DNA of 51,298 nucleotides. Origin: Rhodospirillaceae bacterium Spongia-Bin9 (GTDB lineage Bacteria; Pseudomonadota; Alphaproteobacteria; Bin65). Below are positions 6,905 to 49,287 of this stretch, piece after piece. The notes below the pieces were generated by a model. The model saw only the letters and a list, made by a program, of their open reading frames with translations, was not told the DNA's origin and did not search any database. The stretch lies in assembly GCA_900197615.1 (NCBI GenBank), contig FZLR01000011.1, forward strand, positions 1-51,298. The letters run 5' to 3'. Numbering within the stretch: the first letter of the stretch is position 1; each line of letters opens with the position of its first letter. The translations under genes and the position numbers were made by a program.

Positions 6905-9313
6905 ATGTTAGAACTTGAGGGCGGCGTGCTGCTGCCTGTTCTCCCGCTCCGGGATATCGTTGTTTTTCCGCATATGATCGTGCCGCTCTTCGTCGGCCGG
7001 GAAAAGTCGGTCCGGGCGCTCGAAGACGTTATGCAAGACGACAAGCAAATTCTTCTGGTCGCCCAGAAGAACGCTGCGCAGGACGATCCCTCGACCTCCG
7101 ATATCTACACCGTCGGGACTGTCGGCACTGTGCTGCAGCTGCTCAAGCTGCCCGACGGCACGGTCAAGGTACTGGTCGAAGGCGGTCAGCGCGCCAGTAT
7201 TCTGCGCTATGCCGAAAATGACTCGTTTTTCCAGGCCTGGTCGGCGGTGATGGACGAAGAAGGGGAGGACGACAAGGAAGTCGAAGCGCTGATGCGCACC
7301 GCCGTTTCGCAGTTCGAGCAGTATCTCAAGCTGAACCGCAAGATCCCGCCGGAGGTTCTGGTCTCGATCAACCAGATAGACGAGCCGGGCAAGCTTGCCG
7401 ACACGGTGGCCTCGCATCTGAATCTCAAGATTCCCGAGAAACAGGAACTGCTGGAGACCGCCCCGATCGGCGCGCGGCTGGAGAAGATCTACTCCTACAT
7501 GGAGGGCGAGATCGGCGTGATGCAGGTCGAGAAGCGCATCCGCAACCGGGTCAAGCGCCAGATGGAGAAGACCCAGCGCGAGTATTACCTGAACGAGCAG
7601 ATGAAGGCCATTCAGAAGGAACTGGGCGACGGCGAGGACGGCAAGGACGAGCTGGCCGAAATCGAAGAGCGGATCAAGAAGACCAAACTATCGAAAGAAG
7701 CCCGCGAGAAGGCCGACGCGGAGCTCAAGAAGCTGCGCTCGATGAGCCCGATGTCCGCCGAGTCGACGGTTGTGCGCAACTATCTCGACTGGCTGCTCGG
7801 CATCCCGTGGAAGAAACGGACCAAGATCAAGCGCGATATCGGGCGCGCCGAACGCATCCTCGACGAGGACCACTACGGTCTGGAGAAGGTCAAGGAGCGG
7901 ATCGTCGAATACCTCGCCGTCCAGCAGCGGATGAAGAAAATCAAGGGCCCGATTCTTTGCCTCGTCGGGCCGCCCGGTGTCGGCAAGACTTCGCTGGGCA
8001 AATCCGTCGCCCGGGCGACCGGTCGAAACTTCGTTCGCCTGTCCCTGGGCGGCGTGCGCGACGAAGCGGAAATTCGCGGACACCGGCGCACCTATATCGG
8101 CTCGATGCCGGGCAAGGTGATCCAGTCGATGAAGAAGGCCAAGACCTCGAACCCGCTGTTCCTGCTGGACGAGGTCGACAAGCTGGGCGCGGACTGGCGG
8201 GGCGATCCCTCCTCGGCTCTGCTCGAAGTCCTGGACCCGGAGCAGAACGGAACCTTCAACGACCACTACCTGGAGGTAGACTACGATCTCTCGGATGTGT
8301 TGTTCATCACGACGGCCAACACGCTGCGCATGCCGCAGCCCCTGATGGACCGCATGGAGATCATCCGCCTGCCGGGCTACACCGAGGATGAGAAGGTCGA
8401 GATCGCCAAACGGCACCTGATTCCCAAGCAGGTCGAGGCGCACGGCTTGAAGGAAGAAGAATGGTCGGTATCCGATGCCGCCCTGCGCTCGCTGGTCCGT
8501 TACTATACGCGGGAGGCCGGCGTCCGGAATCTTGAGCGGGAAATCGCCAATCTGATCCGCAAGGCAGTGAAGCAGATCGTCAGCGGCACCGCGGACAAGG
8601 TCACCGTCACCAACCGGAACGTCGAAAAATTCGCCGGCGTCCGCAAATACCGTTTCGGCCTGGCCGAAGACGAGGACGCCGTCGGCGTCGTCACCGGCCT
8701 GGCGTGGACGGAAGTCGGCGGCGAACTGCTCTCGATCGAAGCCGTCACCCTTCCCGGCAAGGGCAAGGTATCCGCGACCGGAAAACTCGGCGAGGTCATG
8801 AAGGAATCGGTCCATGCAGCCGAGAGCTTCGTGAAATCCCGCGCAGTCAGCTTCGGGATCAAGCCGACCATTTTCGAGAAGCGCGACATTCACGTCCATG
8901 TGCCGGAAGGGGCGACACCGAAGGACGGACCGTCGGCCGGCGTTGCCATGATTGCCGCGATCGTTTCCGTTCTGACCGGCATTCCGGTTCGCAGAGACGT
9001 CGCGATGACCGGCGAGATCACCTTGCGCGGCAGGGTCTTGCCGATCGGCGGCCTCAAGGAGAAGCTGCTCGCCGCGCTGCGCGGCGGTCTGAAAACAGTG
9101 CTGATTCCGGACGAGAACGAAAAGGATCTGGCCGAAATCCCCGATAACGTGAAGCGCGGTCTGACCATCATCCCGGTCAGTGCCGTCGACCAGATTCTGG
9201 AACATGGATTGACCGCGCCGCTGACACCCATCGAATGGGTGGACGCCGATGACGAAGTGGCGACGGTTCCTGGCGACAACACAGGTGGAGAGGTCGGTAT
9301 GGTGACCCACTGA
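6905..9313 (+). CDS. lon: Lon, ATP-dependent serine protease
   Basis: This 802-residue protein degrades misfolded and regulatory proteins. I place the start at ATG 6905, where the conserved N-terminus [15 protein letters not shown] begins. The frame stays open upstream to 6812, but that stretch shows no Lon-like sequence. The LonN domain is followed by a coiled-coil linker, the AAA+ module with Walker A GPPGVGKT at 355-362, and the protease domain. The catalytic dyad is Ser677 (PKDGPSAG) and Lys720 (GGLKEKLL), matching the spacing in E. coli Lon. hup follows 230 nt downstream, the usual neighbour. Confidence 0.97.
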
Positions 9314-9543
9314 CCGGGCTATCGCACCGCGTCATTCGAGCAGAAAGTAAAATCCTTGCGAGATATCCGCTTTGCAGTGGCCCCGGCGATTGACCGGATC
9401 GCCGGGATCGCCGTAAACTCGGAACGGTCTGGCTGGTCGGACTTGTCGAGCGGGTGGGTTAAGGCCGGCTTCGGAATAGGACGGCGCCCAGAGCCGATCC
9501 GGCGGATAAACAACTGTATTCCAAGAGTAAAAAGGGGATTTAC

Positions 9544-9816
9544 GTGAACAAGAATGACCTTATTGCCGCCGTTGCCGACAGCACGGGCTTGAGCAAGACC
9601 GACGTCGCGTCTGCTATCGATGCGACGCTCGCTTCGATCACCGATACCCTGAAATCCGGCGGCGAGGTGAAACTTGTCGGATTTGGCTCCTTCCACGTGA
9701 CCCAGCGGGCGGCTTCGACCGGGAGAAATCCGCGTACCGGCGAAACGATCCAGATCGCCGCCTCCCGTCAGCCGAAGTTCAAGGCCGGCAAGGGCCTGAA
9801 GGATGCGCTGAACTAG
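9544..9816 (+). CDS. hupB: HU-family DNA-binding protein
   Basis: This 90-residue histone-like protein bends and compacts DNA as a dimer. MNKNDLI at the start, the dimerisation helices, VGFGSFHV, and the arm with GRNPRTGE are all HU landmarks. Translation starts at GTG 9544 behind a good AAAGGGGA ribosome-binding site. The nearest upstream in-frame alternatives lack one. It lies just downstream of lon, as in many proteobacteria, and is closed by a strong terminator. Confidence 0.96.
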   Translation: MNKNDLIAAVADSTGLSKTDVASAIDATLASITDTLKSGGEVKLVGFGSFHVTQRAASTGRNPRTGETIQIAASRQPKFKAGKGLKDALN

Positions 9817-20080: not shown

Positions 20081-20128
20081 TGTCTCTTCCTGGTGCGAAT
20101 GGGAGTCGGGAAGAGAACCGCAGGATCG

Positions 20129-20157
20129 AAAAAGGCCGCTCTCCTTCCGGGGCGGCC
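20129..20157 (-). terminator. Transcription attenuator of trpE(G)
   Basis: On the minus strand GGCCGC (20157-20152) and GCGGCC (20139-20134) form a GC stem around a 12-nt loop, followed at once by five U residues (20133-20129). It sits 49 nt before the trpE(G) start and 29 nt after the trpL stop. The 5' arm can instead pair with GGCGGC inside the leader reading frame, which would give an antiterminator. This is the 3:4 element of a tryptophan attenuator. Confidence 0.85.
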
Positions 20158-20185
20158 CTGTTGCGGGTTCGAATGCGAGGCACGT

Positions 20186-20251
20186 TCAACCCGAAGCAGC
20201 CGCCGTTCCGGCGCGCCGCCACCACTGGCCCGATGTGCGAATCGCAGTCAT
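20186..20251 (-). CDS. trpL: trp leader peptide with tandem Trp codons
   Basis: A 21-codon frame beginning M-T-A-I-R-T-S-G-Q-W-W-R-R and ending with TGA. Codons 10 and 11 are consecutive TGG. Just after them, CGCCG-GAA-CGGCG can fold as the 1:2 hairpin and hide the GGCGGC that would otherwise block the terminator. A ribosome stalled at the Trp codons would prevent that and let transcription continue. No Shine-Dalgarno is present. The ATG lies only 8 nt after the -10 box, so translation is probably leaderless, as known for Sinorhizobium meliloti trpL. The terminated RNA would be about 120 nt. Confidence 0.82.
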   Translation of the reverse strand: MTAIRTSGQWWRRAGTAAASG

Positions 20252-20259
20252 GGGCGCGG

Positions 20260-20288
20260 CGTCTACAGCGTTCCGGCGGCGCCGTCAA
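20260..20288 (-). promoter_or_regulatory. trpL-trpE(G) promoter
   Basis: On the minus strand TTGACG (20288-20283), a 17-nt spacer and TAGACG (20265-20260) make a reasonable sigma70-type promoter. It points at the leader peptide. Initiation would fall at or next to the A of the trpL ATG (20251). The 169 nt further upstream, to 20457, show nothing I can name. Confidence 0.65.
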
Positions 20289-20457: not shown

Positions 20458-21030
20458 CTATCCCGATTTCGGCTTCGACGCCGGCTTCGGCGGCGGCGGT
20501 TTCGCAGGCTTTTTCTGCGGCGCCGACTTGTTGCCCATCTGCACGCATCGCTCGAGCCGTTTCAGGGAACGGGCAGTTCCGGTGAGCCGGAACCCGTAAT
20601 CGCGCTTGCCTTGCAGCAAGCGGAGTTTCAGTCCCCGGCGCAGCTGTTCCCGCGTCTTTCCGTCCTTGCCCAGCGCCAGCCACAGCCGTTTCGTATCGTA
20701 CCGAAGCACCGCGCCCGGGGCGGAACGGATCACCTTGCCGTCGATCGCCAGGGTCATCGTGTAGGGACTATGCGGGTTGAGCGACCAGTCCGGTGCAGAT
20801 ACGCCGATGAACAGATCGTGATTGCGAAAAAGAAGGAAATAGAGGGTGATGCCGCTGTTGTATTTTGCCGACATGATGCAGTGGCTGAAACCGCCGTCGC
20901 GGTCGATGTAGGAATTCCCTGTCCAGTCGCCGACCGACCATTGCGCTGCGGCCGGAGGCGACCAACCGGCCAGACCGCTCAAAAGCAGGGCTACAGGCAG
21001 GGCAGAGAGGCGGCGAAAGGGCCGGGGCAT
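20458..21030 (-). CDS. Secreted protein of unknown function
   Basis: A 190-residue protein with a signal peptide (PVALLLSGLAGW, predicted cleavage near PPAAAQW at about 28-30). The mature part begins WSVGDWTGNSYIDRDGGFSHC, followed by AKYNSGITLYF and NHDLFIGVSAPDWSL. A single-domain beta-rich architecture is likely. The C-terminal 25 residues are Lys/Pro-rich. I recognise it as a recurring type of periplasmic hypothetical protein in alphaproteobacteria, with loose resemblance to IalB-like proteins, but cannot assign a function. Two cysteines (in FSHC and LERC) could form a disulfide. It lies between trpE(G) and the divergent TPR gene. Confidence 0.7.
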   Translation of the reverse strand: MPRPFRRLSALPVALLLSGLAGWSPPAAAQWSVGDWTGNSYIDRDGGFSHCIMSAKYNSGITLYFLLFRNHDLFIGVSAPDWSLNPHSPYTMTLAIDGKVIRSAPGAVLRYDTKRLWLALGKDGKTREQLRRGLKLRLLQGKRDYGFRLTGTARSLKRLERCVQMGNKSAPQKKPAKPPPPKPASKPKSG

Positions 21031-48869: not shown

Positions 48870-49057
48870 ATTCCTTTGAATTTCGCGGCCGGACATCCGG
48901 TCGCCGGGGCGGCGGATGCCCGGAGAAAAAAGAATTGACCCTAATTGCGGCCCCGGAAACCGTCAAGCATTGTTGCCGGCCGGCAGGGCCGGCTGCCGGC
49001 CTTTGCGTCCGCAGCCGGAACGGACGCTTGACGCCGTTCGACTCATAGGGCTAATGC

Positions 49058-49247
49058 TTGCGGGCTTGGCGCCCCGAGCCCGAGGGGGAGGGGCATAATA
49101 GGGAATCCGGTGCGATCGGCAGATCAAGTCCGGAGCTGTCCCCGCAACTGTAAGCGGTTGGCCGCGCTCGAAAGCCACTGGACAGGCAACCGGGAAGGCG
49201 AGCGCAAAATGGGCCGGTAACCGTGAGCCAGGAAACCTGCCGCGCAA
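49058..49247 (+). ncRNA. Cobalamin riboswitch
   Basis: The conserved B12-riboswitch core is clear: AATAGGGAAT, CCGGTGCG, then the B12-box region GCTGTCCCCGCAACTGTAAGCGG, GCCACTGG, ACCGGGAAGGCG and AGCCAGGAAACCTGCC. TTGCG (49058-49062) and CGCAA (49243-49247) can close the outer stem. It ends about 40 nt before cbtB. A small hairpin including GTCG/CGAC reaches the cbtB ribosome-binding region, so translational control is possible. B12 binding would turn off cobalt uptake. Confidence 0.95.
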
Positions 49248-49287
49248 CCGGGAAATATCGTTGTCGGGTGATACGACGGAGAATTGG

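Follow-up and report, generated by a model that had tools for sequence, protein, structure and literature searches.

A predicted leaderless trpL attenuator upstream of fused trpE(G) in an uncultured alphaproteobacterial genus

Described trpL leaders and the locus in the window

The enterobacterial trp leader has a 5' UTR with a Shine-Dalgarno (SD) sequence and precedes a complete trp operon in which trpE is not fused. In Sinorhizobium meliloti, the leader RNA rnTrpL lowers trpDC and the peptide peTrpL acts with antibiotics, and similar effects have been described in Agrobacterium and Bradyrhizobium (PMC7298713, PMC7143759, PMC10117765). On the basis of RNA-seq, trpL1, located before trpE in Streptomyces lividans, is reported to be transcribed leaderless (PMC8079986).

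We analysed a 51,298-nt stretch of DNA from Rhodospirillaceae bacterium Spongia-Bin9 (the window). Its minus strand, read from 20288 to 20129, comprises a promoter, a trpL leader ORF, competing hairpins and an intrinsic terminator, all upstream of trpE(G) (Table 1). Every part listed in the initial annotation, namely the promoter, the 21-codon leader with tandem Trp codons, the 1:2 hairpin and the 3:4 terminator with five U residues, was found, as was the fused downstream gene, whose product passed the PRK13566 and TIGR01815 models. The spacing of 8 nt from the -10 box to the ATG and the missing ribosome-binding site were likewise borne out: the 20 nt upstream of the trpL ATG contain no SD-like motif. 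Counted from this ATG, the terminated RNA would have a length of 123 nt, in agreement with the earlier estimate of ~120 nt. The terminator stem, GGCCGC...GCGGCC on the minus strand, has an interrupted upper part. Searches of Rfam at the gathering thresholds and at E<=10 matched no trp-leader family to the leader and returned only chance-level sRNA matches. A 190-aa ORF with a signal-peptide-like start and no Pfam or NCBIfam match lies upstream of trpL (20458-21030, minus strand), and a Cobalamin riboswitch (109 bits) is located at 49050-49258 on the plus strand.

Table 1. Positions of the trpL and trpE(G) features in the window
Feature	Position	Strand	Details
-35 element TTGACG	20283..20288	-	read directly
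-10 element TAGACG, weak match	20260..20265	-	17-bp spacer from -35; 8 nt to leader ATG
trpL leader ORF, 21 codons, MTAIRTSGQWWRRAGTAAASG	20186..20251	-	ATG 20251; stop TGA 20188-20186
Tandem Trp codons TGG TGG, codons 10 and 11	20219..20224	-	read directly
Region 1:2 hairpin GGCGGC.CGCCG...CGGCGGCUGCU	20195..20220	-	predicted fold
Region 2 GGCGGCU, antiterminator 5' arm, within leader ORF in the genus	20198..20204	-	predicted pairing with region 3
Region 3 GGCCGCC, common to antiterminator and terminator	20151..20157	-	predicted folds
3:4 intrinsic terminator hairpin	20134..20159	-	predicted -16.4 kcal/mol; stem invariant in 5 genus sequences
Five-U tail, predicted RNA 3' end	20129..20133	-	read directly
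UCUCUUCC, complementary to trpE(G) SD	20109..20116	-	8 pairs kept in 5/5 genus sequences
GGAAGAGA, putative SD of trpE(G)	20083..20090	-	read directly
trpE(G), fused anthranilate synthase, 747 aa	17837..20080	-	ATG 20080; PRK13566 and TIGR01815 above cut-off

Like the S. meliloti locus, it couples a fused trpE(G) to a leader ORF that carries tandem Trp codons and is predicted to begin with the transcript, and the RNA would be of similar size (PMC7298713, PMC10117765, PMC7143759). However, the S. meliloti leader has 14 aa with three Trp, whereas the leader in the window has two Trp and extends through region 2, and trans action, reported for the S. meliloti RNA and peptide, is not supported for the window leader. 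Bradyrhizobium and Agrobacterium also have a short Trp-tandem leader before trpE(G), but their leaders are shorter and trans effects were tested there; one locus in our set, L082, encodes a peptide, MSIAVRPARFWWRTS, that nearly matches the one from Bja, MSTAVAPARLWWRTS (PMC7298713). S. lividans trpL1, reported as leaderless, likewise has a Trp tandem, hairpins and a U-rich stretch, there before a monocistronic trpE (PMC8079986); this actinobacterial leader differs in having 18 aa with three Trp. With the enterobacterial trp operon leader (Rfam Trp_leader), the window locus has in common the 1:2, 2:3, 3:4 logic and the tandem Trp codons. Promoter geometry and the absent SD are those of a leaderless, rnTrpL-like trpL, and the window genome combines a fused trpE(G) with trpDC at a separate locus, trpD-trpC-trpF lying together on another contig. 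The window leader thus belongs to the known leaderless trpL type, although it is longer than most and falls into no Rfam family. Such a leader is not new outside the rhizobia, since leaderless trpL was already reported in S. lividans (PMC8079986) and the geometry recurs in other trpE(G) genes.

Conservation, promoter spacing and the predicted switch

The structure of the window leader by itself is no better than chance. Its folding z-scores (-0.97 to +0.39) are not significant and, because the G+C content is high, such single-leader scores are uninformative; 27% of dinucleotide shuffles of the leader also give a terminator with an overlapping antiterminator. A strict sigma-70 scan did not report the trpL promoter, nor did a simple terminator scan report the interrupted trpL stem. 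What decides the case for the putative attenuator is the comparison with other genomes: the genus alignment, the switch geometry and the fixed promoter-to-ATG spacing.

We aligned the window with four further trpE(G)-bearing genomes of the genus (G001, G002, G003 and G005). The comparison across relatives proposed in the initial annotation came out in its favour, as the Trp tandem, the promoter spacing, the 2:3 pairing and the terminator are present in all five. TGGTGG is invariant in these genomes, and so is the TTGAC of the -35 element, which is also found in G004, a genus member that lacks trpE(G). GTA..CG of the -10 element is retained 7-8 nt from the ATG in 6/6 genus sequences, G004 included. 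The terminator and its T run are retained though much neighbouring sequence varies; the terminator stem is invariant and therefore offers no covariation. Region 2 can pair with region 3 in 5/5 sequences, with one U-G/C-G change in the outer helix. The genomic context of leader and trpE(G) differs between the window genome (G000), G001, G003 and G005 on one side and G002 and G004 on the other (window 20258-20288 vs L148, L147); the two have therefore moved or been rearranged together within the genus.

To look further afield, we gathered fused trpE(G) loci from named genomes, 61 relatives and 386 genomes of the class and read the sequence upstream of each. Short ORFs that end in WW or WWW lie before trpE(G) in Pleomorphomonas, Stappia, Hongsoonwoonella, the Bradyrhizobium-like locus L082 and other Alphaproteobacteria, as well as in L008 (a MAG labelled Chloroflexi) and many Streptosporangiales-type actinobacteria; about half of the sampled loci lack a recognisable WW leader, and these are for the most part more distant. 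Among the examined fused trpE(G) genes that carry a WW leader, most share the leaderless geometry. In 17 of the 23 non-actinobacterial leaders, a -35 element matching at no fewer than five of six positions is found at -38..-35 relative to an in-frame ATG (shuffled upstreams: mean 0.6, maximum 3 of 500), and in the actinobacteria TAnnnT lies at -14..-12 in 16/16 (shuffles: mean 0.6, maximum 5), counts of leaders that share kinship and are not independent events. When the rules were swapped, the actinobacterial rule applied to 1/23 alphaproteobacterial leaders and the alphaproteobacterial rule to 0/16 actinobacterial ones. Both positions would place the transcription start at the leader ATG. The leaderless reading of the initial annotation is thus well supported by comparison, as the spacing is kept in the genus and in distant genera.

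Leaders were folded with a ribosome placed either at the Trp codons or at the stop codon. By inspection, all 23 folded leaders give 2:3 pairing in the former case and the 3:4 terminator in the latter. Under a fixed rule for Trp-attenuator switching, 19 of 21 leaders, mostly from Alphaproteobacteria with some from actinobacteria, pass, compared with 3.9 expected from shuffles. The cores of regions 2, 3 and 4 are GGCGGCC/GGCCGCC/GGCGGCC in most Alphaproteobacteria and GGCGGU/ACCGCC/GGCGGU in some actinobacterial leaders; either set lets both helices form. Region 2 lies 3' of the stop codon in most relatives and inside the longer leader ORF in the window's genus. Where found, the terminator ends ~105-135 nt past the ATG in Alphaproteobacteria and near 90 nt in actinobacteria. 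The locus thus has the hallmarks of a Trp attenuator: a tandem-Trp leader ORF before a trp gene, an intrinsic terminator with a U tail before the structural gene and, in the predicted folds, an antiterminator and a terminator that exclude each other depending on where the ribosome stands. Very probably, a ribosome-mediated tryptophan transcription attenuator controls trpE(G).

The sequence parts, their conservation and the predicted alternative folds are established directly, and from them we infer start site, termination, Trp response and translation. Judged by the promoter spacing, transcription would begin at or within ~1-2 nt of the trpL AUG, and the ribosome would initiate on the leaderless RNA. 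If Trp-tRNA is scarce, the ribosome would stall at codons 10-11 and mask region 1, allowing region 2 (GGCGGCU) to pair with region 3 and RNA polymerase to continue into trpE(G). If Trp is abundant, a ribosome at the stop codon would mask region 2, so that the 3:4 terminator forms and the 123-nt RNA is released; the longer ORF, which runs through region 2, would still permit this masking.

A further element may act on the read-through RNA. UCUCUUCC, between terminator and trpE(G), is found in 5/5 genus sequences with 8 to 10 pairs to the SD GGAAGAGA, and Pleomorphomonas has another sequence of equal effect (GGUCUCUCC with GGGGAGAUU). The resulting hairpin may cover the SD and damp trpE(G) translation; the predicted accessibility of the trpE(G) SD in the window is not clearly different from that in shuffled sequences, 0.38 of which are closed to at least the same degree. 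A state-dependent SD switch, in which the GGAAGGAGAG terminator arm pairs with UUCUCUUCC and frees the trpE(G) SD, was rejected because the SD hairpin persists in the minimum-energy fold of each state; the hairpin, if real, would thus be static.

An orphan leader and alternative readings

G004 (97% complete, 50 contigs) encodes no Chorismate_bind protein anywhere, and a terminator pattern search of this genome found one copy, with one mismatch. This copy belongs to an orphan trpL at L136:1340-1760 (G004:C29, about 9138-9560), where TTGACG, GTATCC, ATG, the leader MNRSGTSKRWRWRVGMAAVPD*, the antiterminator, a terminator with TTTTT and 26 codons follow one another. The first part of this 26-codon remnant is the trpE(G) start. 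About 2.2 kb, comprising nearly the whole of trpE(G), has been deleted, as judged by synteny with G002 on both sides and a junction from one assembly; GCCGGTCG short repeats occur at both ends of the deleted stretch. In predicted folds, the G004 leader can still adopt either state (-21.9 and -16.3 kcal/mol). Its 123 nt include three changes derived in G004, each at a site that does not vary among the genomes with trpE(G): two convert WW to W-R-W (TGG CGG TGG) and one weakens the terminator. Between G004 and G002, the leader diverges by ~5% and trpD four-fold sites by 12%. No vestige of the leader was found in G006, G007, G008, G009 or G010; G006 has a PF00425 protein and lacks trpE(G).

G004, G008 and G009 have no Chorismate_bind (PF00425) protein at 92-98% completeness, yet trpD is present, and these organisms are probably Trp auxotrophs or anthranilate users. 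No trpB above the TIGR00263 cut-off occurs in any of the eleven genomes (G000 and ten relatives). Their single candidate, L120 (G000:C103) with its counterparts in the ten relatives, scores about 150 bits and is probably a TrpB2-type protein.

A transcript that starts farther upstream, from a promoter before 20288 or by read-through from the gene at 20458-21030, would give trpL a 5' UTR. The -10 element is a poor match and promoter scans find none, but the -35/-10/ATG spacing is conserved amid varying sequence and recurs in distant genera, and no SD precedes the trpL ATG, making such a start very unlikely. The attenuator could also have a dual function, acting in cis while the 123-nt RNA and/or the 21-aa peptide regulates other mRNAs in trans, as rnTrpL and peTrpL do in S. 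meliloti. There the RNA pairs with trpD mRNA, and the peptide works within antibiotic-dependent ribonucleoprotein complexes. Geometry and size are as in the S. meliloti RNA (116 nt, coordinates in PMC7143759), trans effects have been reported in three rhizobia (PMC7298713), trpDCF is at a separate locus as in S. meliloti, and G004 retains a leader after losing trpE(G). Yet once accessibility is corrected for, the leader matches trpD no better than background in any of the five genomes, with 0.36-0.72 of the background at least as good in what is a weak test with a simplified model, and the trpD start region is identical in G004, a relative without trpE(G). In addition, the Trp tandem and the terminator are altered in G004, and G006, likewise without trpE(G), has no detectable leader. 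The model thus lends no support to trpD as a target of the leader RNA, trans action is not supported, and a dual function appears unlikely. We also dismissed as a target a CCGCCGCCAU site that recurs where trpD begins, since the trpE(G)-less G004 has it too and there is no match in G000 or G005; duplex energies of leader and trpD calculated without accessibility gave meaningless values and were discarded.

For G004 itself, a fairly recent trpE(G) deletion with an attenuator starting to decay is the likeliest reading, because both its Trp tandem and its terminator are altered and G006 is without a leader. That this trpL persists as a stand-alone leaderless small mRNA or sRNA, still sensing Trp and acting in trans or on the downstream selW, is quite improbable; if true, it would extend the trans function of trpL RNAs past the rhizobia. 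We also doubt strongly that the orphan leader now controls the selW-like gene by read-through. The deletion leaves an Rdx/SelW ORF next on the same strand, ~150 bp past the start of the trpE(G) remnant, but this gene already sits after trpE(G) in G002, which means that it inherited its place, and the lost Trp tandem points to relaxed selection. The SelW-like ORF (L136:1722-1943; Rdx family, PF10262, E 5e-16), which comes directly after trpE(G) in G002 (L148) and after the remnant in G004, has an in-frame TGA in a CxxU motif and is probably a selenoprotein.

Significance of the leaderless arrangement

The orphan G004 leader is a natural experiment in which control of trpE(G) in cis can be told apart from any role in trans; the early changes in its Trp tandem and terminator speak for cis control as the function chiefly under selection. 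With the window locus, the known range of the leaderless trpL-trpE(G) design grows by an uncultured alphaproteobacterial genus. Promoter spacing and the 2/3/4 switch recur in distant Alphaproteobacteria and in actinobacteria, which suggests that the attenuator's leaderless start is ancient and selected, not a rhizobial oddity.
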